A stretch of DNA of 32,625 nt from a virus. Positions 1-8,755 of the stretch are shown here, one piece after another (position 1 is the stretch's first letter; every line of letters starts with the position of its first letter). The notes under the pieces were generated by a model. That model saw only the letters and a program-made list of their open reading frames with translations. It was not told the DNA's origin and did not search any database. The translations under genes and the position numbers were made by a program. Where the stretch lies: IMG/VR virus record IMGVR_UViG_3300042991_001152, positions 1 through 32,625 of that record, one strand, 5' to 3'.

Positions 1-261
1 GCCGTTGCCCGGGAGCAGCCCGACGGCCGCCGCCTGGCAGAGCGCGCCCGCGATCGACAGTGGGTCGCACCGCTGGAGCCCCTCGCTCACGCGGATGACG
101 TTGAGCGCGACGCTCGCCACGTGGCGCGCGTCGAGGCCGCGGACGGCCGCCTCCGAGATGCGCGCGAGCACACTCTCGTGCGTCAGCGTCCCCTGGATGC
201 GCGCGAGCGCCTGGGACTGCGGGACGATCTCTCCGTGGGACGTCGTCGCCGGTGCCGTCAT
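1..261 (-). CDS. recT: RecT-family ssDNA-annealing protein, N-terminal part (cut by window edge)
   Basis: The visible 87 codons encode the N-terminus of a RecT-like single-strand annealing protein, which pairs complementary ssDNA after end resection. The segment reads as a mainly helical lead followed by the RecT-type stretch with RVSEGLQRCDPLSIAGAL and QAAAVGLLPGNG, where members of the family carry a conserved 'Cys-x-Pro-x-Ser-(hydrophobic) ... Ala-(hydrophobic)-Gly-Leu' pattern. The ATG at 261 overlaps the TGA of the upstream exonuclease gene in an ATGA junction, so the two are translationally coupled. An exonuclease plus annealing-protein pair is the standard phage recombination module, which supports the call. 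The catalytic/binding core lies beyond the left edge, so only family membership can be judged. Confidence 0.75.
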   Translation of the reverse strand, partial: MTAPATTSHGEIVPQSQALARIQGTLTHESVLARISEAAVRGLDARHVASVALNVIRVSEGLQRCDPLSIAGALCQAAAVGLLPGNG

Positions 262-1160
262 CGTGCTTCCCTCCTCGTGAGCCGGAACACCCGGTACTCC
301 TCCCTCTCGATCACCGCCGCCGGCACCACGTACCGGCTCGCCCGGTAGCTCGCGCCGCTCGGGAGCACCCCCCCCGCGGCGTCCGCGATCGCGTGCTTCA
401 GGAGGCCGTCGAGTTCGCGCTTGCGTGCCTCGTCGGCCCTGATGCGAACTCGGACCTGCTGGAGATCCGCGTCCCACGCCTCGGCCTCGGGCGGGAGCGC
501 GACGTACTCCTCCCCCTCGGTCGTCGGGTAGAGCGCGGTGAGCGCGTGCGAGGCGCTCTCGGAGTCGTCGGGCGGCGGCGGGTCCTGCTCCCGGAGCCGG
601 CGCTGCATGTCCTCCCCGGCCTCGACGATGCGGGCGACCATGTCGAGGTTCCCCGGGACGCGCGCCCAGAGGAGCCGGAACGCGGGCGACGCGGTGAGGA
701 CGCCGACGATCGCGCGCTCCGCCCCGGTCACCAGCATCTGATGCTGGACCTGGGCCATGTAGTGCGGCGGCACCTCGCCGGCCGTCCAGCGCCGGAGCGC
801 GGCCGTCCCGACCGTCTTGAGCTCGACGGGCTCCCCGGCTGGCGTGCGCCAGTCCGGCGTGCACACCGCCCAGGGGTAGGCCACGCTCTGGAGGAGCAGG
901 CCCCATGGCTCGAGCGGCTTCCCGAGGCGCTCCGCGAGGAGGCGTCCGAGCGGCTCCTCGAGCGCGAGGCCGATCTCGACGTGCTCGACGTCGCCGAGGT
1001 CAGGCCGCTCGACCACACCGAGGAGCCGCGCGTACAGCTCCAGTCTCGAGCACCAGGGTGAGACGCCGAGGAGCGCCGCGGCGTCGGAGGAGCCGACGCG
1101 GCCCTGGTGGAGGTCGCGCCACTGCGGGTCGTCCGTGTGGCACAGCACGCGGTAGGTCAC
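258..1160 (-). CDS. YqaJ-type (lambda Exo-like) phage recombination exonuclease
   Basis: A 300-residue protein of the YqaJ viral recombinase family, a PD-(D/E)xK nuclease that resects dsDNA ends and hands ssDNA to a RecT-type annealer. The family hallmark near the N-terminus is present (residues 23-36, GSSDAAALLGVSPW). The likely active site is formed by E67/E68 (GLALEEPL), D103 (CTPDW), E113-x-K115 (PVELKT) and the Gln-rich helix Q137-Q141 (AQVQHQ). The C-terminal ~100 residues are charged and helical. GTG at 1160 is preferred because it forms a GTGA overlap with the upstream gene and places the motif at the usual distance; an upstream in-frame start at 1214 would overlap that gene further. 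It is followed by recT with an ATGA overlap. Confidence 0.85.
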   Translation of the reverse strand: MTYRVLCHTDDPQWRDLHQGRVGSSDAAALLGVSPWCSRLELYARLLGVVERPDLGDVEHVEIGLALEEPLGRLLAERLGKPLEPWGLLLQSVAYPWAVCTPDWRTPAGEPVELKTVGTAALRRWTAGEVPPHYMAQVQHQMLVTGAERAIVGVLTASPAFRLLWARVPGNLDMVARIVEAGEDMQRRLREQDPPPPDDSESASHALTALYPTTEGEEYVALPPEAEAWDADLQQVRVRIRADEARKRELDGLLKHAIADAAGGVLPSGASYRASRYVVPAAVIEREEYRVFRLTRREAR

Positions 1161-1327
1161 GGGCGCCTCGTCTCCCGCGCCGCCAGCTCGCGCCGCGCCC
1201 GGCAGGGCAGGCACATGCAGTCGAACTCCGGGGAGGGCGGGAGCGCGAGGCCGCAGGGCTCCTCGGCGCGCTCCCGGAGCCTCTCGAGCGGCATCCGGGC
1301 CATCGCGCAGTCGATCGGCGCGCTCAT
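1157..1327 (-). CDS. Small cysteine-containing protein of unknown function
   Basis: A 56-residue ORF starting MSAPIDCAMARM. It contains Cys at 7, 25, 37, 39 and 42, the last three as C-M-C-L-P-C, followed by a basic tail, which may bind a metal. The ATG overlaps the stop of the preceding membrane-protein gene (ATGA) and its own stop overlaps the GTG of the YqaJ gene (GTGA), so it sits inside the recombination operon. No family is recognised. The coding call rests on the coupled start and stop and on the G+C-rich third codon positions. Confidence 0.6.
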   Translation of the reverse strand: MSAPIDCAMARMPLERLRERAEEPCGLALPPSPEFDCMCLPCRARRELAARETRRP

Positions 1328-1503
1328 CGCACCACCCCGCACGCCTTGAGGAGCGCTGCGAGGCCGACGCCGAGGCCGACGCCGAGGAACGACAGCGCCA
1401 TCACGGCGGCGGCGAACGTCGCCCCGGCGCGGACGCGGGCCCCCTCCTTGTCGGAGAGGAGCGGCCCGTCGGCGCGGCTCCCGCCCCGCCTCGGCGCGCT
1501 CAC
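1324..1503 (-). CDS. Small single-span membrane protein
   Basis: A 59-residue protein with a hydrophilic N-terminus (about residues 1-27) and one hydrophobic segment (about 28-52, ATFAAAVMALSFLGVGLG followed by more apolar residues), ending in a short basic tail. The N-terminal half is basic and hydrophilic, so topology is uncertain. GTG at 1503 is chosen because it overlaps the TGA of the ribbon-helix-helix gene (GTGA). No family is recognised. Its place between a DNA-binding protein and the recombination genes gives no direct clue to function. Confidence 0.6.
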   Translation of the reverse strand: MSAPRRGGSRADGPLLSDKEGARVRAGATFAAAVMALSFLGVGLGVGLAALLKACGVVR

Positions 1504-1646
1504 GAGCGCACCGCTTGGCGCAGCAGCCGCTCGACGAGGTCCCGGAGCTGGACCTCCTCCCTCACCGCCCTCACCTTGAGGAGTTTGTGCAGGTCGCGCG
1601 GGATCTTGATCGCGGGCCTGCGGTCCGACTTCGCCGCTGCGCTCAT
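1500..1646 (-). CDS. Ribbon-helix-helix (Arc/CopG-like) protein
   Basis: A 48-residue protein with the size and pattern of a minimal ribbon-helix-helix repressor. After a short basic arm comes a beta-strand (RPAIKIPRDL, residues 10-19), then two helices (HKLLKVRAVREE and LRDLVERLLRQAV). RHH proteins act as dimers whose paired strands enter the DNA major groove. The ATG at 1646 has a GGAGG six bases upstream. It follows two XRE-type genes and probably contributes to control of this early operon; the operator is not known. Confidence 0.65.
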   Translation of the reverse strand: MSAAAKSDRRPAIKIPRDLHKLLKVRAVREEVQLRDLVERLLRQAVRS

Positions 1647-1688
1647 CGCTGGCCTCCATGCCCGGGGAGAGAGAATACATCCTGGGAC

Positions 1689-1976
1689 CTAGGAGTCAAG
1701 GGGATTCTGGGATTTATTCTGCGGGGGGAAGGGGCTCGCGGGTCTTGCGGGCTGAGGCCCGCGAGCCCCCCCGAGCCACCGGGCGAGAGCCTCCGCCACG
1801 AGCCTCGCCCGGGGCTCCGTCCCCAGCTCCCACCGGGCCCACGTCGCCCAGTGGACGCCGACCTGGGCCGCGGCCTCGTGCTGCGTCAGGCCACGCGAGA
1901 CCCGCGTGGACCACACCCGCTGGGCCAGGCTCCCGGGTGCCGGGGGACCGCCCCTCCGGCACCCGAACGTCGTCAC
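1689..1976 (-). CDS. XRE-family helix-turn-helix protein (second of tandem pair)
   Basis: A 95-residue protein with a Cro/C1-type HTH at about residues 28-52: RGLTQHEAAAQVGVHWATW, then ARWELG. The upstream neighbour carries the same core with the same spacing, so the two probably arose by tandem duplication. The C-terminal ~25 residues are Pro/Gly-rich and probably disordered. GTG at 1976 overlaps the stop of that paralogue (GTGA). The spread of XRE helices over only ~50 residues implies a minimal Cro-like DNA-binding protein. Its target is not visible; the palindrome-rich region at 5302-5456 is the best candidate in the window. Confidence 0.7.
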   Translation of the reverse strand: MTTFGCRRGGPPAPGSLAQRVWSTRVSRGLTQHEAAAQVGVHWATWARWELGTEPRARLVAEALARWLGGARGPQPARPASPFPPQNKSQNPLDS

Positions 1977-2164
1977 GGCGCGCCCCCGAGCCAGTTTTCG
2001 ACCGCCACGCGGTAGAGGCCCCGCGGCGGCCGCCCCGCCTCCCACCGGGCCCAGGTGGTGACGTCCACCCCGACCTGGGCCGCGGCTCCCGCCTGCGTGA
2101 GGCCGCGGACCGCCCGCGCCCCACGGAGGCGCTCCGCGAGGCTCCCTGCCGCCGGCGGGGTCAT
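1973..2164 (-). CDS. XRE-family helix-turn-helix protein (first of tandem pair)
   Basis: A 63-residue protein consisting almost only of a Cro/C1-type HTH: SLAERLRGARAVRGLTQAG, then AAAQVGVDVTTWARWEAG. It shares the GLTQ...AAAQVGV..TWARWE core with the next gene. The ATG at 2164 is preceded by GGAGGAG and overlaps the stop of the previous gene (ATGA). The size suits a Cro-like repressor that binds as a dimer. Two adjacent paralogues could recognise related operators or form a heterodimer; this is inference. Confidence 0.72.
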   Translation of the reverse strand: MTPPAAGSLAERLRGARAVRGLTQAGAAAQVGVDVTTWARWEAGRPPRGLYRVAVENWLGGAP

Positions 2165-2400
2165 GACTCCTCCGCGAGGCTCGCCCACGAGTCCCGGAGG
2201 ATCCACTCGGCGCAGGCCGGGTGGACACGGAGCCTCTCCGCCCCGTTGTGGGGCCAGCATCCGGCGTTCCCGCCCGCCCGGTGCGACTCCCGGAGCGCCT
2301 CGGGCATCCACTCCACGAGGACCCTCGCTCCCCCCTCGGGGGCCTCGCACCGGACGCCGGTGATCGTCCCGCACTCACAGATCTTCCTCGCCTGCCTCAT
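2161..2400 (-). CDS. Hypothetical protein with Cys/His residues
   Basis: A 79-residue protein starting MRQARKICECGTITGVRCEA. Cys at 8, 10 and 18 lie near the N-terminus, and further Cys and His residues occur mid-protein (GGNAGCWPH, VHPACAEWIL). This could be a small zinc-binding fold, but no known family was recognised. The start overlaps the TGA of the DUF5131 gene (ATGA), so expression is coupled to it. Confidence 0.6.
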   Translation of the reverse strand: MRQARKICECGTITGVRCEAPEGGARVLVEWMPEALRESHRAGGNAGCWPHNGAERLRVHPACAEWILRDSWASLAEES

Positions 2401-3128
2401 CGCTCGTCCTCCGGGTACTGCGTCCAGCGCCGGCCGTCCAGCACGGCCAGCGCCCCCTCGGCCTTATTCGGATGGCCCCCGATCTGTTTCAGGAACAGGG
2501 CCACGCCCCGCTCCTGGCACACGTCGCGGATCTCCCTGAGCCACGCCGCCTCGCACGGCCGGCAGCGGGGACCGCTCTCCCCGCCGACCACGACCCAGTC
2601 GATCGGCGCTCCCGGCGCGTCGAGCGCGGCCGCGAGCCCGGGCAGCGGCCCGAGGAGCGGCTCGACCGAGAGCCAGCGCACGGTCACGTGCGCGGCGTGC
2701 TCCCGGAGCTGCGCCACGCGGCCGAGGGCCCGCTCGTCCTCCACCGAGGTCCCCGCCCACACGTGCGCGGGGAGGTCCGGCCCGATGCGCTCGGGCCGCT
2801 TCGTGAGGACCTGCCACGTGTGGTCGGTCCTCGCCTCGATCACGCGGTAGGCGGCCGGCCGCCAGGGGTCGGCCGCGGGGTGGTAGAAATCGGACATGGA
2901 GCAGGGGAAAATGCGGGTCGGCGCCCAGGCGAGCGGGGCCAGCATCGTCCGCTCCGGGGCAAGGGCGAGGCGCCCGGTCCAGCGCCCCCGGGCCGCCACC
3001 CCCGCGTAGTGCGGGTGGACGCTCTGGAGGCGGGTGGCCATGCGCGCCGCGTAGCAGTGCGCGCAGCCCGCGGACACGGCCTCGCAGCCGACCCACGGGT
3101 TCCAGCTCTTCCCCGTCCACTCGATCAC
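2397..3128 (-). CDS. DUF5131 family protein (phage Gp37/Gp68-like)
   Basis: A 243-residue member of the DUF5131 / phage Gp37-Gp68 family, often described as radical-SAM-like. The diagnostic N-terminus is intact: IEWTGKSWNPWVGC, then the cluster C15-x6-C22-x2-C25-Y-A. Other family blocks are visible: a Ser-Asp-Phe motif (SMSDFYHP), WQVLTKRPER, WAGTSVED, RWLSVEPLLGP, DWVVVGGESG and the C-terminal LFLKQIGG. The three Cys resemble the ligands of a 4Fe-4S cluster, but spacing differs from the classic CX3CX2C, so the chemistry is inference. The substrate is unknown. GTG at 3128 overlaps the stop of an 18-codon ORF (GTGA), and the start places the EWTGKSWNP block at residues 3-11, as expected for the family. 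Confidence 0.85.
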   Translation of the reverse strand: MIEWTGKSWNPWVGCEAVSAGCAHCYAARMATRLQSVHPHYAGVAARGRWTGRLALAPERTMLAPLAWAPTRIFPCSMSDFYHPAADPWRPAAYRVIEARTDHTWQVLTKRPERIGPDLPAHVWAGTSVEDERALGRVAQLREHAAHVTVRWLSVEPLLGPLPGLAAALDAPGAPIDWVVVGGESGPRCRPCEAAWLREIRDVCQERGVALFLKQIGGHPNKAEGALAVLDGRRWTQYPEDER

Positions 3129-3181
3129 CGCGCGGCCCTCCGGGCCCAGCGCGCGAGCGCCCTGGCCACACGCATCGCCAC
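3125..3181 (-). CDS. Possible 18-residue basic micro-ORF
   Basis: GTG at 3181 follows GGAAAGG and opens an 18-codon frame (VAMRVARALARWARRAAR) whose stop overlaps the GTG of the DUF5131 gene. Its peptide is almost the same as the C-terminus of the 40-residue protein at 5179-5301, and the DNA is repeated too. It may be a remnant of that gene reused as a coupling leader. It is too short for certainty. Confidence 0.35.
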   Translation of the reverse strand: MAMRVARALARWARRAAR

Positions 3182-3183
3182 AT
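3138..3183. repeat. Dispersed repeat, copy 1 (second copy near 5189-5232)
   Basis: The DNA encoding the Arg/Ala-rich helix (ARALARWARR) is duplicated. In both copies the plus strand runs ctccgggcccagcg, then gcgagcgccc and acgcatcgccac, with few substitutions. Each copy lies at the 3' end of a small ORF whose stop overlaps the next start. This points to duplication of a gene end or coupling element rather than chance. Confidence 0.55.
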
Positions 3184-3191
3184 GCCTTTCC

Positions 3192-3207
3192 GGGGGCCTA
3201 AGCCCCC
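3192..3207. other. Inverted repeat around the stop codon of the 101-residue gene
   Basis: GGGGGCCTAAGCCCCC forms a 6-bp stem with a 4-nt loop, and the TAG stop of the gene at 3198-3503 lies in the loop. There is no T run, so it is not a standard intrinsic terminator. It may protect the transcript or tune coupling to the DUF5131 gene. Confidence 0.4.
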
Positions 3208-3503
3208 TGTTCGAGACTACGGCCGATCCAGGGGTCCACCCCCGGGCGCACCCGGGGGTAGACCGTCGGCCACGGCTCCGCCGGGAGGGTCTCCGGCGCG
3301 AGCCGCACCTGGTGGTAGGACCCGCTCCCCGTGCGGGTCCACCCCGACCGGAGGAAGGTCGCGTGTCGGCACGCGACCTCATCCGCCGTCACCCCGGGTC
3401 CGTAGACCTGGGGAGTCTGGCCTGGCTCGGTAGGCCAGGCCAGCCACCGGACCTCGCGCTCGGCGAGGTCCAATTTCCGGCGTGTTCCCCACTCCATGCT
3501 CAT
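3198..3503 (-). CDS. Hypothetical phage protein, 101 aa
   Basis: A 101-residue protein starting MSMEWGTRRKLDLAEREVRW. Composition is normal for a folded soluble protein and it is rich in Trp (WLAWPTEPG, SGWTRTGSGSYH, PWPTVYPRV). ATG at 3503 is ten bases after GGAGG and overlaps the stop of the upstream gene (ATGA); an ATG two codons later (3497) is possible. No family is recognised. Confidence 0.6.
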   Translation of the reverse strand: MSMEWGTRRKLDLAEREVRWLAWPTEPGQTPQVYGPGVTADEVACRHATFLRSGWTRTGSGSYHQVRLAPETLPAEPWPTVYPRVRPGVDPWIGRSLEQGA

Positions 3504-4072
3504 GGTTGCCCCACCTCCTCTGACGTCCGGTGGATGACCCAGGCCGGAGGAGCCTGGTCTCCCGGGGCGGCCACGACGGGGAGGGGCTCGATCACCCACT
3601 CCTCGAGGGCCGCCCTGATGTGTACGCAGACCTCCTCGGGCCATGCGGCGATGGCCCATTGAGTCTTGGGCCACGCGCAGCCCAAGGCCTCCTCCGGGCC
3701 CCAGTCGAAGTCCCCGGGGCCATAGAAGCACCACGTCCTGACCATCCAAGCCGCACGGGCTTGGATGGCTTGGCCGAGGCGGCCCCCCTTGTCCTTGGCC
3801 TGCCGGCGGCAGGACCCGAGCGGGGCGTGCGCTAGCCCCCCTGTGGTGAGGAGCCCCTCGATCTCCTCGCGGAGGGCCGCCGCCCCCTCGATGACGCTCG
3901 CCTGGTCGAGGACCAGGCGTCCGGCGAGCCGGAGAACCTCCGGCTCGGGCCGTCCCCCGAAGCGTACTCGGAGGAGACGGCGCGCTCCCCACTCCGCCGC
4001 CATCCTGGCGACAGCCACCTCTGGGCTCGGGGCCCGGGGTGGGAGAGCAGGATTCGTCCTGTAGATGCTCAT
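3500..4072 (-). CDS. Hypothetical phage protein, 190 aa
   Basis: A 190-residue soluble protein beginning MSIYRTNPALPPRAPSPEVA. A helical first half contains EVLRLAGRLVLDQASVIEGA. The C-terminal half is Trp-rich (WMVRTWCFYGPGDFDWGPEEA and VCVHIRAALEEWVIEPL). ATG at 4072 has GAGGAG five bases upstream and overlaps the stop of a 17-codon ORF (ATGA). It lies in the early-type operon; no family is recognised. Confidence 0.65.
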   Translation of the reverse strand: MSIYRTNPALPPRAPSPEVAVARMAAEWGARRLLRVRFGGRPEPEVLRLAGRLVLDQASVIEGAAALREEIEGLLTTGGLAHAPLGSCRRQAKDKGGRLGQAIQARAAWMVRTWCFYGPGDFDWGPEEALGCAWPKTQWAIAAWPEEVCVHIRAALEEWVIEPLPVVAAPGDQAPPAWVIHRTSEEVGQP

Positions 4073-4122
4073 AGCTGCTCCTCTTCCGACTGGAGGTCAC
4101 ACTTGTGGTGTGCCATGTCCAT
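4069..4122 (-). CDS. 17-residue microprotein / coupling leader
   Basis: AAAGGAGAGCC precedes ATG at 4122, an excellent initiation region for a frame of only 17 codons: MDMAHHKCDLQSEEEQL. Its stop overlaps the ATG of the 190-residue gene (CTATGAGC), and its own GAA-GAG-GAG codons form the SD of that gene. This looks like a translated leader. The initiation region is a near copy of the one in front of the gene at 4327-4719, so the leader may be the remnant of a duplicated gene start. Confidence 0.45.
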   Translation of the reverse strand: MDMAHHKCDLQSEEEQL

Positions 4123-4170
4123 GGCTCTCCTTTCAGCACCTCGACCACGACTCCGACCGCGACATCGACT
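4115..4170. repeat. Duplicated gene-start region, copy B (copy A near 4647-4697)
   Basis: Plus-strand copies A and B share tgtccatgg, ctctccttt, then cctcgaccacgac, ccgaccgcgac. They cover a G-rich hexamer run, the SD (AAAGGAGAGCC on the minus strand) and an ATG-GAC-AT start. Copy B has a 4-nt insertion before the hexamers and lacks the 4-nt atgg duplication. Beyond the start codons the copies diverge. The hexamer run in copy B continues into the Ser-Trp repeat gene. Confidence 0.6.
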
Positions 4171-4315
4171 CGGACACCGACCTCAACATCGACGACTCCG
4201 ACAACGACCACGACCGCGACCACGACCGTGGCCCGGACCACGACCACGACCACGACCGTGGCCTGGACCACGACACCGACACCTCGTAGCCGGCACGGAG
4301 TATGGAGGCCTTCAT
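4133..4315 (-). CDS. Ser/Arg/Trp low-complexity repeat protein, 60 aa
   Basis: ATG at 4315 lies six bases after GGGAGG and opens a 60-codon frame: a short head (MKASILRAGYEVSVSW) followed by SW, RS and SES repeats and ending WSRC. The DNA is built of TCGTGG-type hexamers, and this frame puts G or C at nearly every third position, as in real genes here. The other minus frame would give a Val repeat and the plus strand an Asp-His repeat; neither has an SD. The protein is predicted to be disordered, basic and aromatic. Function is unknown; nucleic-acid binding is only a guess from composition. Confidence 0.5.
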   Translation of the reverse strand: MKASILRAGYEVSVSWSRPRSWSWSWSGPRSWSRSWSLSESSMLRSVSESMSRSESWSRC

Positions 4316-4326
4316 GCCCCACCTCC

Positions 4327-4719
4327 CTACTTCACGTCCTTCGGGAGGGCGCTCGTCCACGGTCGCCCGTCCACGATGGCCCCGAGCCCGACGATCACGC
4401 CGTCGCCCGCGGGCTCCACCTCGCTGAGGTTCTCGGTGCATGTGGCCAGGTGGTACCGCCCCGTGTCCGCGACCCAAGCCGCCTCGTTGAGGACGAGGAA
4501 CTGGCCGACAATGGCGTGGACGCGGCCCGTCCATGTCATCGTCACCGTCCGGATAAGGTACGCCGCCCCGACCCGGAACGGCGCCACGACGTCCGGGTTG
4601 ACGAGCGCGGCGATCTCCCGCGCCTCCCGGATGGTGAGTTCGTTGATGTCCATGGATGGCTCTCCTTTACCTCGACCACGACCCCGACCGCGACCCCGTA
4701 GTGGACCGCGCTTGTGCAC
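4327..4719 (-). CDS. Conserved-looking hypothetical protein with two possible starts (130 or 108 aa)
   Basis: The core protein starts MDINELTIREAREIAALVNP and continues with VGAAYLIRTVTMTWTGRV, VLNEAAWVADTGRYHLA, GDGVIVGLGAIVDGRPW. Its AYLIRTVT...TGR...L.EAAWVADTGR...VIVG.G.I.D pattern looks like a small conserved protein found scattered in bacterial and phage genomes, which I recognise as recurrent but cannot name. ATG at 4653 has its own SD (AAAGGAGAGCC). An in-frame GTG at 4719, five bases after GGGAGG, would add 22 residues with an [10 protein letters not shown] run. Both starts look usable, so two forms may be made. The longer start is given here. Confidence 0.65.
   Translation of the reverse strand: MHKRGPLRGRGRGRGRGKGEPSMDINELTIREAREIAALVNPDVVAPFRVGAAYLIRTVTMTWTGRVHAIVGQFLVLNEAAWVADTGRYHLATCTENLSEVEPAGDGVIVGLGAIVDGRPWTSALPKDVK
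4647..4697. repeat. Duplicated gene-start region, copy A
   Basis: Partner of the repeat at 4115-4170. On the minus strand it reads as four GGTCGN hexamers, then GGTAAAGGAGAGCC and the ATG at 4653. Here the hexamers are read in frame as Arg-Gly; in copy B the same type of hexamer is read as Ser-Trp. Confidence 0.6.
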
Positions 4720-4741
4720 AACGACCTCCCTTCGTGTGACC

Positions 4742-5182
4742 CTATGGCCGCGTCGCAAAGTCTTGCAGCCCCTCGACAACCCGGGCGACGGCGCCCGGGA
4801 GGAACGACCTACGGACGACGGCCCGCACGTCGTCGTCCGTCCTCTCGAGTCGGCGGGGCTCCTCCACCTGGCCGGACTGGGTAACCCGGCGGACCATCGT
4901 GGTCCCCCAGGTCTCCTGCACCTCCCAGTGGCCGATGCCGGCCCCCGGGACTGGGGCCCACTCTGGGCCCGGCACGACCCCGTACTCGGCCACGTGGGCC
5001 CGGAGCGAATCGACCCGCTCCTGAGCCCACGCGTTGAGCACGGCCTTCGCCGCCGAGATGGCCGCCGCGACGGCGGTCATCTCGGCAGTACGGAACCTGG
5101 AGTGGTCGGAGTGACCGCCCCAGGCTATGGCGGCGTCCTGGACCGCCGCCACGCGACCGGCAGACGTGATGAGCGTCATCAT
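4742..5182 (-). CDS. Hypothetical phage protein, 146 aa
   Basis: A 146-residue protein starting MMTLITSAGRVAAVQDA. The N-terminal half is Ala-rich and helical (EMTAVAAAISAAKAVLNAWA). The middle has a beta-like stretch with Trp (EWAPVPGAGIGHWEVQETW), and the end is charged and helical. ATG-ATG at 5182 has GGAGG five bases upstream and overlaps the stop of the preceding 40-residue gene (ATGA). No family is recognised. Confidence 0.6.
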   Translation of the reverse strand: MMTLITSAGRVAAVQDAAIAWGGHSDHSRFRTAEMTAVAAAISAAKAVLNAWAQERVDSLRAHVAEYGVVPGPEWAPVPGAGIGHWEVQETWGTTMVRRVTQSGQVEEPRRLERTDDDVRAVVRRSFLPGAVARVVEGLQDFATRP

Positions 5183-5301
5183 GGCCGCCTCCGGGCCCAG
5201 CGGGCGAGCGCCCGGGCCAGACGCATCGCCACGTAGCGGGGGGCCCGCGGGCACCGCGCCCGCACGGCCTCGCCGGCACGCAGCAGCCTCTGCAGGCTCA
5301 T
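5179..5301 (-). CDS. Small Arg-rich protein, first gene of the leftward early-type operon
   Basis: ATG at 5301 lies seven bases after GGGAGG and encodes 40 residues, MSLQRLLRAGEAVRARCPRA and then an amphipathic Arg/Ala helix (MRLARALARWARR). It is the first ORF downstream of the intergenic region at 5302-5456. The last part is repeated at 3125-3181. It could be a small DNA-binding peptide or a leader; composition (more than a quarter Arg) is the only clue. Confidence 0.5.
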   Translation of the reverse strand: MSLQRLLRAGEAVRARCPRAPRYVAMRLARALARWARRRP

Positions 5302-5456
5302 CGGATCCCTCCCGCCGCGGGGCTCTCCCACGGCACCCTACAGCATAGCATGCGCCATGCCTAGCAGAATCGAGCCTAGCCTATGCCATAGCGTGCGCAT
5401 GGCTTGCGCAGGGGGGTAACGATCCGTTACGGTGCCGCGCACGATACTGTGCGTGG
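5302..5456 (-). promoter_or_regulatory. Palindrome-rich intergenic control region upstream of the early-type operon
   Basis: About 155 bp without a convincing gene, less G+C-rich than its surroundings. It holds several inverted repeats: GTAACG-ATC-CGTTAC (5417-5431), CTATG-C-CATAG near 5381-5391, CGCAC-GATACT-GTGCG near 5438-5453, and nested GCATGCGC/CATGC and CTAGG repeats between 5340 and 5400. These look like operators for dimeric repressors, for which the XRE and RHH proteins downstream are candidates. A weak -10-like TATGCT lies on the minus strand near 5345, but no good -35 pairs with it, so the promoter is inferred from position. Confidence 0.5.
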
Positions 5457-5690
5457 CTAGGTGTGCGCCTGGGTGGCAGCCTCCCACGCGCACCCGCGCC
5501 CGTGCACCTGCTCCGCCCACCGGCGCCGGGTGAGGTCCGCCCACCGGGGCTGCATCTCCGCGCCGCGCCAGCGCAGCCCGCAGCGCTCCGCGGCGAGCAG
5601 GGACGAGCCGCTCCCCGCGCACGGGTCCCACACCACCGCGCCCACGTGGCGGGGTGGACGCCGACCTGCTGGGCGATTATCGAATGTCAA
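5457..5690 (-). pseudogene. C-terminal relic of an amino (N4/N6) DNA methyltransferase
   Basis: The frame from a TTG at 5690 encodes VVWDPCAGSGSSLLAAERCG followed by LRWRGAEMQPRWADLTRRRW, the SAM-binding motif I and following strand that sit at the C-terminal end of beta-class adenine/N4-cytosine methyltransferases (DPCAGSGS; E-x-x-P-x-W/Y-x-x-x-x-x-x-R). The catalytic DPPY-type motif that should lie about 100-200 residues upstream is absent. The 20 codons before motif I are an out-of-frame piece of a different gene. The product would be inactive, so this is a truncated relic. Confidence 0.65.
5633..5677 (-). pseudogene. Scrap of an XRE-type HTH gene
   Basis: In a frame different from the flanking methyltransferase relic the minus strand reads IAQQVGVHPATWARW, nearly identical to AAAQVGVHWATWARW in the XRE gene at 1689-1976. 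Only about 15 codons survive. They are fused directly to the relic at 5457-5690, marking a recombination joint. The base before it is AT-rich (TTGACATTCGATAATC). Confidence 0.55.
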
Positions 5691-5706
5691 GACGAAAACC
5701 GTCGGT

Positions 5707-6171
5707 TCAGGGCCGCAGGACGGAGAGGACCGCCCGGACGACCGCCCGCGCGAGGAAGGGCGGGACGGAGTTCCCGACTTGGCCCCAGCGCTCCCGCGCC
5801 GTCCCGAGGAGCTCGAAGGCGTCCGGGAACGAGGCCACCCGCTTCAGTTCCGGGGTCGTGAGGTGCCGGTCCTCGTCCGGGTGGAGGAGCCCGCCGCCGA
5901 AGTAGTGGCTCGGGCGGCTCCGCAGCCGCGACACCGTGAAGGCGGCCCGGTCCCACCGGCAACGCTGCTGGTTGAACGCGTAGCCCGGGGTGACGGCGTT
6001 CCCGTCCTTGCCGGGGAGGAGCCGTCGCGCGAGCCGCGCGAGCTCGCCCGTGAAAGGCTCCCCCTCCTGCGGCGGGAGCCCGCGGAAGGCGTCCTCGAGC
6101 GTCAGGACGCACGGCGCCCACGGGGCGAAGGCGTCCTCGATCTCCTGCCGTCCCGGGAGCCGAGTGTTCCA
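5707..6171 (-). pseudogene. C-terminal relic of a C5-cytosine DNA methyltransferase
   Basis: A 154-codon open stretch follows the stop of the upstream gene directly. It encodes the end of a Dcm-type enzyme: CVLTLEDAFRGLPPQEGEP, then QQRCRWDRAAFTVSRLRSRP (motif IX region), SHYFGGGLLHPDEDRHLT, ELKRVASFPDAFELLG and WGQVGNSVPPFLARAV (motif X). The SAM-binding motif I, the catalytic Pro-Cys motif IV and ENV motif VI are all missing, and nothing resembling them lies upstream in any frame. There is no ATG in frame; the first start codon is GTG at 5934, inside motif IX. An ATG at 6172 is in another frame. This is a 5'-truncated, presumably inactive gene. Confidence 0.7.
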
Positions 6172-6366
6172 TCAGGCCGCCCCCTTCAGCCGTGCGACGA
6201 GCGTCGCGATCTCCTCCGGGCTCGCGCCGTCCTCGACGACGACGGCGATCCCGCCAGGCTTCACGTCGACGTTGACTGTCTCCAGCCCGAGAGCCTCCCG
6301 CGCGAGGCTCTCGGAGATCACCACGACTGCCCCGTCCCGCACGACGACGTTGACGGTCGTGGTCAC
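6172..6366 (-). CDS. Small Val-rich protein, 64 aa
   Basis: GTG at 6366 overlaps the stop of the upstream frame (GTGA); a second GTG lies two codons earlier (6372). The protein has beta-rich patterning (VTTTVNVVVRDGAVVVISES, VNVDVKPGGIAVVVEDG) and ends in a helix (SPEEIATLVARLKGAA). Alternating hydrophobic residues suggest a small beta-sheet domain. G+C at third positions is high, so it is probably a real gene. No family is recognised. Confidence 0.55.
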   Translation of the reverse strand: MTTTVNVVVRDGAVVVISESLAREALGLETVNVDVKPGGIAVVVEDGASPEEIATLVARLKGAA

Positions 6367-6605
6367 AGCCACGCCTCAGCCGGCACGAGCCACCGCTCCG
6401 ACGGCCGCAAGAACCCCACCGGGGGCTCCGGGCTGGGCGCTGGCGGGCTCGGGGCCGGCTGGACTGTCGTCCCCTCGGTCCCGGTCGCGGTCCCACTGTT
6501 GGGGCTCTGGACCGTCGCGGCGAGCCTCGCGTCCGTGGTCGCGGTTGTGGTCGGGGTCGTGGTCGGGGTCTGCTGCGTGCCGATCTGGAAGATGTTGCCC
6601 TGCTG
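6363..6605 (-). CDS. Thr/Pro-rich protein, C-terminal part (start separated by inversion)
   Basis: From 6605 down to the TGA at 6363 the minus frame encodes 80 residues: QQGNIFQIGTQQTPTTTPTT, a Thr/Ala/Gly stretch, PAPSPPAPSPEPP, then VGFLRPSERWLVPAEAWL. G or C fills most third positions. There is no start codon here: the frame runs upstream to a GTG at 6790, but the added codons have poor third-position G+C and are antisense to a better gene. If the segment 6608-6802 is inverted, this frame joins in phase to MKLASIGITGLA, a short signal-peptide-like start, giving about 92 residues. A secreted or cell-envelope role is inferred. Confidence 0.5.
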   Translation of the reverse strand, partial: QQGNIFQIGTQQTPTTTPTTTATTDARLAATVQSPNSGTATGTEGTTVQPAPSPPAPSPEPPVGFLRPSERWLVPAEAWL

Positions 6606-6769
6606 ATTGGGACAAGGTCGTGCGGGGGACGCTGTCGCTCGGCCTCGTGGCCGTGTCGAGCTACCTCGCGATCGTGGGCCAGGAGGTGCCGGAGTGGCTC
6701 CTCGGGCTGACGGGGCTGGCGGTGGGGCAGTACCTGCCGCGGCCGGGAGAGATCGGAGGTGGGAGATGA
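6605..6769 (+). CDS. Holin-like membrane protein segment on the opposite strand (start missing)
   Basis: The plus strand reads DWDKVVRGTLSLGLVAVSSY, LAIVGQEVPEWLLGLTGLAV, GQYLPRPGEIGGGR and a stop. Two hydrophobic segments (about LSLGLVAVSSYLAIVG and WLLGLTGLAVGQYL) separated by a short polar turn resemble small two-span phage membrane proteins such as holins. Almost every codon ends in G or C, unlike the antisense frame. There is no ATG; GTG at 6620 is the first start codon and lacks a good SD. Its TGA overlaps an ATG (ATGA) that has GGAGGT upstream, exactly the junction style of the minus-strand genes. It therefore looks like a flipped piece of the operon. Confidence 0.5.
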   Translation, partial: DWDKVVRGTLSLGLVAVSSYLAIVGQEVPEWLLGLTGLAVGQYLPRPGEIGGGR

Positions 6770-6802
6770 AGCTCGCATCGATCGGGATCACGGGCCTCGC
6801 GA
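6608..6802. other. Putative 195-bp inverted segment
   Basis: Within this interval the plus strand has coding character, while both flanks are coded on the minus strand. Turning it around rejoins two interrupted genes in frame, restores an ATGA overlap between them, and gives each a normal start and stop. No long inverted repeats flank it, so site-specific inversion is not obvious; TCGCGA lies at the right end. Confidence 0.5.
6766..6801 (+). pseudogene. Flipped 5' end of a signal-peptide-like gene
   Basis: GGAGGTGGGAG precedes ATG at 6766, which encodes MKLASIGITGLA before coding character is lost at about 6802. In the present orientation the frame runs on into the antisense of another gene. 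Re-inverting 6608-6802 places these 12 codons in phase with the Thr/Pro-rich frame ending at 6363. Confidence 0.45.
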
Positions 6803-7054
6803 CTTCCGCGGCGCCTGGTAGGCGCCCTCGTCGGCCACGGCCTTCGCCCCCATCTGGACGAGCGCCGTCCTGTGGGCTGGAGTCAGCCTCCCCCCGAGCC
6901 ACCGGACGCGAAACCATCCCGGCATCTCGCGATGGGCCGCCTGACTGAGCATCTGCGGACAGCCCACGGGGAGGGTGGGGACGACGACCGGCCACCCCTC
7001 GAACTCGGTCGGGTAAGAGATAGCGAGCGGCACGTCCCAGACCTCGTCAGCCAC
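6788..7054 (-). CDS. Hypothetical protein, possibly truncated by inversion
   Basis: GTG at 7054 follows GGAGGAGGGCGACCC and encodes 88 residues: VADEVWDVPLAISYPTEFEG, WPVVVPTLPVGCPQMLSQAA, then a region with MPGWFRVRWLGGRLTP. The last four codons (after APRK) come from the adjacent segment that appears inverted. In the re-inverted arrangement APRK would continue in phase into WDKVVRGTLSLGL, giving a 137-residue protein with two C-terminal membrane spans. No family is recognised for the soluble part. Confidence 0.55.
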   Translation of the reverse strand: MADEVWDVPLAISYPTEFEGWPVVVPTLPVGCPQMLSQAAHREMPGWFRVRWLGGRLTPAHRTALVQMGAKAVADEGAYQAPRKSRGP

Positions 7055-7265
7055 GGGTCGCCCTCCTCCTGGCCCGCTCCCGCGCGACGGGCGGGCACGA
7101 GTCGTCCACCCGCCGCGCGGCCCCGCACCGGAAGCACCGGCACTCGACGCCGGCCACCGTGTCCACCATGTAGAACTGCGCCGTGAACTCCCGGACGCCG
7201 GGGACCCCGGAGCACACGACACACGCCCGCGAGCAGGCGCAAAGCTCCAGGTCCCCGCCGCTCAC
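7047..7265 (-). CDS. Cysteine-rich, putative zinc-binding protein
   Basis: A 72-residue protein whose GTG at 7265 overlaps the stop of the upstream gene (GTGA). Cys residues occur as C-x-C-x3-C-x2-C (residues 9-18, CACSRACVVC) and later as CRCFRC followed by a distant Cys. Two such clusters suggest a small zinc-ribbon fold. It sits between distal tail genes and the putative membrane cassette. The function is unknown. Confidence 0.55.
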   Translation of the reverse strand: MSGGDLELCACSRACVVCSGVPGVREFTAQFYMVDTVAGVECRCFRCGAARRVDDSCPPVARERARRRATRG

Positions 7266-7588
7266 GAGAGATCGTGCTCCGACCCGTCCGCCATGACCGC
7301 CACGACGCGGAGCGACGTCCACGGCGCGCACGGGAATCCCTCCCTGTCAAGGAGCGACACCGTCTGCGCCTCCAGGTCCACCGCCCCGCCCGCCATCGAG
7401 GCGCGCTTGCGGACGTCGCCGGCCACGACCTCCCCCTTCGCGTTCGTCGTGTCCACCGTCACCGTCGTCACGAGGACGGGGTGGCTCGACAGTCGCCGGC
7501 CGACGGTCTTTCCCTCGACCTCCCCGACGCCGTGGACCTCGACGCGGAGGGGGAGTCCCCCGAGGTGCGCGTAGCTGTAAGGTCCCAT
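7262..7588 (-). CDS. Small distal tail-module protein, 108 aa
   Basis: A 108-residue protein starting MGPYSYAHLGGLPLRVEVHG. It is beta-rich, with HPVLVTTVTVDTTNAKGEVV and LDREGFPCAPWTSLRVVAVM. ATG at 7588 is preceded by GGAGGAGTC. Its place directly after two small structural-type genes suggests a virion or virion-assembly role, but no family is recognised. Confidence 0.6.
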   Translation of the reverse strand: MGPYSYAHLGGLPLRVEVHGVGEVEGKTVGRRLSSHPVLVTTVTVDTTNAKGEVVAGDVRKRASMAGGAVDLEAQTVSLLDREGFPCAPWTSLRVVAVMADGSEHDLS

Positions 7589-7597
7589 GACTCCTCC

Positions 7598-8092
7598 TTA
7601 CGACAGGGTGACGGTCAGCGTCAGGACCCAGGTCTCGCCCGAGGCCTTCGTCCCTTTGGCCTCGACCTTCCTGTTGAGGTTCTTGTTGGCCGTCGCGCCG
7701 TTGCGGACGGAGAACTCGTTCCACGCCTGGTTGGCGTCGGAGCTGCCGTAGGTGGACTTGAACGTCACGACCGATCCGGCCACCTGCGGATAGGTGGAGT
7801 CCATGGCCTTCCAGACGGCCGTCCCGAGGAGGTCCGTGTCCGTCGCCTGGGCGGACGTAGCGGACGTTCCGACGCCGAGCTGCGCGTTGGCGTTGCTGTA
7901 GGTGGTCGCGCTCCCTCCGATCAGGAGCGTGAGCAGTTCGTTTATCCCCTCGTTGAGGAGGAGGTTCCCGTCCACGTGCTCCACGAGGTCCGGCGCGCGG
8001 CCGGCGGCGTGGTCCGCGGAGCGGCGCCACTTCTCGACCGTCCAGCGCGTGCGGTAGCCGACTCTCTCGGCCGCTCTCACCGCGACTCCCAT
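7598..8092 (-). CDS. Phage virion-type protein, 164 aa
   Basis: A 164-residue protein starting MGVAVRAAERVGYRTRWTVE. The core NLLLNEGINELLTLLIGGSA, AQLGVGTSATSAQATDTDL, NQAWNEFSVRNGATANKNLN resembles a widely distributed small phage structural protein that usually lies after the tail tip genes; this is recognition from memory, not a search. ATG at 8092 has GAGGAG eight bases upstream. It probably belongs to the distal tail or fibre. Confidence 0.65.
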   Translation of the reverse strand: MGVAVRAAERVGYRTRWTVEKWRRSADHAAGRAPDLVEHVDGNLLLNEGINELLTLLIGGSATTYSNANAQLGVGTSATSAQATDTDLLGTAVWKAMDSTYPQVAGSVVTFKSTYGSSDANQAWNEFSVRNGATANKNLNRKVEAKGTKASGETWVLTLTVTLS

Positions 8093-8104: not shown

Positions 8105-8755
8105 TCAGGTCGCCCGCTCGTAGTAGCCGAGCACGTCGATCCTCAGGTCGCATGTCCCCGCGCCGCTCGCGTCGATCGCGTACTCCATCACCTGGGCCGA
8201 GTCGAGCTCGACCTCGACGATCTGCGAGATCGTCACGCCCGCGGCCTGCGGGTAAACCCGCCGTTCACGAGCGTCCGTCGTCGTGCCGTTCTTGCGGATC
8301 GACGCGAACACCGTCGCCGCCGGAGTCCCCGTGTCCTTGACCGTCACGAGCAGTCGCGCCGCGACGGCCCTCGCCGACGTGCTCGACGTCAGGTCGAGGT
8401 CGGTGTCGGTGACGGTGCTTTGCGCGCTGAGGTCCAGCACGTTGACGTCCGGCTCGAGCGCCGTGTAGGTCCTGCGGTACAGGACGCGCCACCCGTAAGT
8501 GGGCGTCGCGTCGAGCTTGACCCAGACCTTGACGAAGCCGCCGAGGTCGTCGCCGCCGTTGCCGAGTTCGTTGTTCGTGTCGAGCCACTCGGTCCCGATC
8601 TGGTCTACGCCCCATGACGCGCCCGATGACGGGTCCTTGGTCTCCGAGTAGCGAGTGCGGACCGTGTTGACGCCCTCGATGACGTCGGCGAGGATCTCGT
8701 CCACGTCGTCCGTGAGCGCCGGCTCGGGCTCGTCCGTCGTGCCCCACTTCTGCAT
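8105..8755 (-). CDS. Distal tail / fibre-associated protein, 216 aa
   Basis: A 216-residue protein starting MQKWGTTDEPEPALTDDVDE. A helical N-terminal part is followed by beta-rich sequence (FVKVWVKLDATPTYGWRVLY, then SARAVAARLLVTVKDTGTPA) ending in DLRIDVLGYYERAT. This layout suits a small receptor-side or accessory fibre protein. ATG at 8755 has GGAGG a few bases upstream. It lies directly after the J-like tip gene. Confidence 0.6.
   Translation of the reverse strand: MQKWGTTDEPEPALTDDVDEILADVIEGVNTVRTRYSETKDPSSGASWGVDQIGTEWLDTNNELGNGGDDLGGFVKVWVKLDATPTYGWRVLYRRTYTALEPDVNVLDLSAQSTVTDTDLDLTSSTSARAVAARLLVTVKDTGTPAATVFASIRKNGTTTDARERRVYPQAAGVTISQIVEVELDSAQVMEYAIDASGAGTCDLRIDVLGYYERAT

Follow-up and report, generated by a model that had tools for sequence, protein, structure and literature searches.

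A plus-strand segment in a minus-strand virus record

In a virus record that codes almost entirely on one strand, what is to be made of a short segment that reads as coding only on the other? The window analysed here is the whole of that record, which was obtained by assembly of environmental DNA and belongs to an uncultured phage. It spans 32,625 bases at 72% GC; a codon-usage profile places nearly all of its coding on the minus strand, and it carries genes for a terminase large subunit, a portal, a head-tail adaptor, a tape measure, a tail assembly protein and a central tail fibre J. The segment in question, a putatively inverted stretch of 195 bp (65 codons) at 6608-6802, has its sole good coding frame on the plus strand, and its re-inversion joins the flanking frames in phase.

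Elsewhere in the record, positions 1-5400 hold a RecE-like exonuclease (258-1214) and a helix-turn-helix regulator, both on the minus strand, and coding is ambiguous in several stretches of this region (approximately 1550-1850 and 5250-5650). A small Cys-rich protein encoded at 7047-7331 (minus) contains several CxxC-like pairs and may be a zinc ribbon; no family match was found for it. The 164-aa protein encoded at 7598-8092 (minus) corresponds to phrog_23653, a family of unknown function, and its relatives belong to distant phages, Bacillus phage SP-15 and Listeria phage LIS04 among them. A long repetitive protein comes after it in two related contigs, L005 and L007. Among the viral contigs, close relatives of the tail fibre, the portal and a 216-aa gene were absent.

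Coding character of the segment and its flanks

The plus-strand frame at 6608-6769 translates as WDKVVRGTLSLGLVAVSSYLAIVGQEVPEWLLGLTGLAVGQYLPRPGEIGGGR followed by a stop codon (53 codons and the stop), with a GC3 of 0.92 and a codon score of +0.28 per codon. It is the only frame of this interval to score above zero, the values being -0.58 and -0.22 for the remaining plus frames and -0.11 to -0.47 across the three on the minus strand, in agreement with the original prediction that 6608-6802 has coding character on the plus strand. Judging from its translation, hydropathy and codon score, this frame would represent the displaced 3' end of a gene, hereafter gene 1, encoding a hydrophobic C-terminus. 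A two-span membrane segment within a lysis cassette had also been proposed. The first span is indeed clear (Kyte-Doolittle 2.1 over 15 residues), whereas the second is weak (approximately 0.9). The lysis cassette remains a putative label: searches beside the segment brought up no endolysin domain, and the C-terminus, examined as a holin-like candidate, gave no match in Pfam or PHROGs.

The end of the hydrophobic frame coincides with a gene joint on the same strand. A Shine-Dalgarno (SD) sequence, GGAGGT, at 6755-6760 (plus) precedes an ATGA at 6766-6769, which supplies both the start codon (ATG) of MKLASIGITGLA and the stop codon (TGA) of the hydrophobic frame; the SD and the overlap both lie within the segment, as the prediction had stated. 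SD-led ATGA overlaps of this kind are the usual style of gene joint in the contig, and this is the only SD-[AG]TGA joint on the plus strand with coding upstream of it. Based on the sequence and the rebuilt frame described below, 6766-6802 (plus) would constitute the displaced 5' end of a second gene, gene 2.

Both flanks, by comparison, score best or nearly best on the minus strand, as had been claimed. The interval 6803-7054 (minus; P0002), comprising 84 codons from a GTG start with a codon score of +0.19 and a GC3 of 0.88, would form the 5' part of gene 1, cut at APRK; in its present orientation the gene continues through four foreign codons (SRGP) and stops at 6788. The interval 6363-6607 (minus), Thr/Pro-rich in translation and with a GC3 of 0.94, would form the 3' part of gene 2, and has no start of its own. 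Over 6366-6605 the minus-strand frame (GC3 0.94) scores +0.07 per codon, with one antisense frame slightly higher at +0.09 because the stretch is Thr/Pro-rich. The coded part of the left-hand frame has no start codon upstream of 6419, the nearest in-frame minus-strand start being a GTG at 6791, within the antisense stretch. The earlier description of the two fragments as wanting a proper start or stop is therefore accurate: gene 1 runs into SRGP and a stop, and the gene 2 part is startless. The next gene of the chain (6172-6372, minus; 64-66 aa in the list of open reading frames, codon score +0.43) begins at a GTG that overlaps the gene 2 stop.

When 6608-6802 is re-inverted, two uninterrupted frames of 137 aa and 93 aa result, which share an ATGA overlap, and the stop of the 93-aa frame overlaps, within a GTGA, the start of the 64-aa gene that follows; the segment is a multiple of three in length and both flanks are joined in phase, as predicted. 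We infer that, in the undisturbed order, gene 1 (approximately 137 aa, with the hydrophobic C-terminus) would have led through the ATGA overlap into gene 2 (approximately 93 aa, Thr/Pro-rich), which would in turn have met the 64-aa gene at the GTGA, and that reversal of the 195-bp stretch would have split two genes of a unidirectional phage operon. The putative breakpoints, 6608 and 6802, were set by frame and codon score only, and several nearby pairs score nearly equally.

Inversion weighed against chance and a native gene

At 72% GC, long open frames arise easily. Every inversion of 30-450 bp in the contig was therefore scored by dynamic programming using codon likelihood. Flipping 6608-6802 yields a gain of 9.4 nats and is the best pair among the lengths of 120-259 bp tried around the site. 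Other places in the contig gain 8-12.7 nats in the same scan, several of them more than the flip, which counts against the inversion and means that codon usage by itself does not settle the matter. Stronger evidence for the flip comes from the gene joints. An SD followed by [AG]TGA is found 8 times among the 279 TGA of the plus strand and 25 times on the minus strand; when a well-scoring frame ending at such a site was required together with a poorly scoring opposite strand, one plus-strand joint (6766) and five minus-strand joints passed. Taken together with the in-phase joints, the stop that gene 1 soon runs into and the lack of a start in gene 2, the joint at 6766 makes an inversion, whatever its cause, the simplest reading of the sequence, and we consider this reading probably correct.

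Two simpler accounts were considered and rejected. Plain sequence bias in a GC-rich contig explains the many open frames and the similar gains elsewhere, but not an SD/ATGA joint accompanied by coding on the plus strand. A foreign insertion in place of an inversion was rejected because removal of the segment leaves the flanking frames out of phase (worked by hand), whereas inversion joins them.

The segment might instead carry a native small gene on the plus strand of a minus-strand operon, encoding a hydrophobic protein of 49 aa from a GTG at 6620, in which case gene 1 would end at 6788 and the Thr/Pro-rich frame would start at GTG 6791. Consistent with such an arrangement, the present frames are formally open, the GTG at 6620 has a weak AAGG upstream, the minus-strand GTG at 6791 exists, and a flip gains just 9.4 nats in the codon model. 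However, the segment would then have to be read on the minus strand in the gene 2 frame, where it is poor (GC3 0.56, -0.38 per codon), and the strongest SD nearby (GGAGGT, ahead of ATG 6766) would lead into gene 1 antisense. Furthermore, the four codons ahead of GTG 6620 (WDKV) also look coding, and the phase agreement at both joints would be a coincidence of approximately 1 in 9. On this balance a native plus-strand gene appears unlikely.

Breakpoints and possible causes of the flip

The ends of the segment bear no sign of an inverted repeat. The in-register inverted-repeat score at the breakpoints is 5, compared with a mean of 6.6 (sd 1.6) for random pairs 195 bp apart, 96% of which score at least 5; a repeat search of the segment ends found no inverted-repeat pair, and the sequence common to the two breakpoints amounts to 1 bp only. 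Resolvase/invertase (PF00239) and tyrosine-recombinase (PF00589) domains were absent from the 32.6-kb record, with controls positive, in a record that may be incomplete and for which a host enzyme is possible.

We consider it likely that the flip is a one-off, non-site-specific microinversion, arisen either in vivo or as a library or assembly chimera: a single event with breakpoints that lack an inverted repeat and have 1 bp in common at most. In vivo, it might have been a rare microinversion produced by a double template switch or by end joining during phage replication. Alternatively, it may be a chimera from library preparation, amplification or assembly, and we lean slightly toward such an artefact over an in vivo origin. 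Short-read de Bruijn assemblers seldom invent junctions that are missing from the reads, so that we favour a rearranged molecule, of cellular or in vitro origin, over a pure assembly error. In favour of an artefact, the chimeras that arise during MDA amplification are mainly inverted ones (PMC1855051), and the segment resembles them in being a local inverted join of closely placed segments that needs no long repeat. Conversely, MDA chimeras typically consist of one junction with a deletion, the intervening sequence usually being lost (PMC1855051), whereas the segment has two junctions and no visible loss. Frame is kept at both joints, an observation to which losses in multiples of three would be invisible.

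A more specific in vivo route would be template switching by the replication machinery from one short inverted-repeat arm to the other. In yeast this process flips the spacer between the arms in living cells, giving small inversions that, like the present segment, lie within coding sequence; it requires arms of >9 bp, however, and affects spacers of a few bases (PMC8604942). The segment measures 195 bp and is devoid of arms, which makes this route very unlikely.

The original prediction had offered a phase switch, a rare rearrangement and an assembly error as causes, of which the first finds no support here. A programmed invertible segment that toggles the two proteins would suit a length divisible by three, in that re-inversion would restore both genes, and, as for invertons, a short reversed piece would change gene expression upon flipping. 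Invertons are nevertheless defined by flanking inverted repeats of 10-40 nt acted upon by a nearby invertase or tyrosine recombinase (PMC11892184). Since the segment ends carry no such repeats and neither recombinase domain was found within the record, a programmed switch is not supported and seems extremely improbable. We know of no host enzyme that inverts DNA without repeats, and a repeat-less inversion in vivo, in which some novel enzyme would toggle the expression of two structural or membrane genes, is likewise extremely improbable.

Truncated methyltransferase genes beside the segment

The 1.4 kb next to the flip contain at least two further truncations. At 5707-6171 (minus), a C-5 cytosine methyltransferase is represented by its C-terminal half, which matches positions 242-322 only of the 324 of the PF00145 profile; it has neither the catalytic N-terminal half nor a start of its own, and follows the stop codon of the 64-aa gene directly, in the same frame. 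At 5457-5690 (minus), the C-terminal end of an N6/N4-type methyltransferase-like protein (DPCAGSGSSLLAAERCGLRWRGAEMQPRW) matches PF01555 positions 181-218, under the curated cut-off. The missing halves of both genes were not found elsewhere in the record. The truncation of two adjacent methyltransferase genes points to more than one rearrangement, with junctions clustered here, a pattern compatible both with a recombinogenic region in a genuine phage genome and with chimeric sequence. The 5457-5690 fragment begins at a patch of lower GC at approximately 5650-5700.

Searches for relatives of the rebuilt proteins

Relatives of the rebuilt gene 1 protein were absent from the viral contigs, bacterial genomes, phage records, PHROGs and Pfam libraries searched. 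For rebuilt gene 2 none was found in the phage records, and matches in PHROGs and Pfam, the other collections searched with it, were insignificant. Intact versions of the two proteins in relatives, proposed earlier as a check of the inversion, were thus not encountered in these collections; the flip is left without a confirming intact version and the rebuilt genes are argued from internal evidence, which counts against the microinversion or chimera favoured here. As the searches may omit near-identical records, the absence of relatives is not strong evidence. Searches with the terminase and the 164-aa gene recovered distant phages. Rebuilt gene 1 was absent from the searched records of phages sharing either of these genes, and the tail fibre was absent from the searched subset of those records.

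Motif scans with the hydrophobic piece returned one weak candidate, L028, which at 8179-8382 encodes a 67-aa hydrophobic protein with GQAVPEWLIALIG, directly upstream of an amidase-like gene (amidase read by eye from the translation). This protein resembles gene 1 in having a hydrophobic stretch followed by the motif GQ.VPEWL..L.G, and in overlapping the frame after it by ATGA, while beyond the searched motif identity is near background; the match was selected by the motif itself, so that no homology is shown. The L028 source record aligns weakly with rebuilt gene 1 (E 0.011), with three stops in the aligned stretch. A motif scan of bacterial genomes found no phage-like small membrane protein.

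Implications for phage contigs

If the flip is an ordinary microinversion or chimera, it is chiefly a matter of data quality, in that automated gene calling would yield erroneous small proteins at this site, and reads should be checked before the contig is cited in support of these genes. This locus suggests that, where a phage contig is coded in one direction, an SD/ATGA joint on the opposite strand can serve as a marker of flips of this kind. A repeat-less inversion switch, on the other hand, would be new, if reads showed both orientations.
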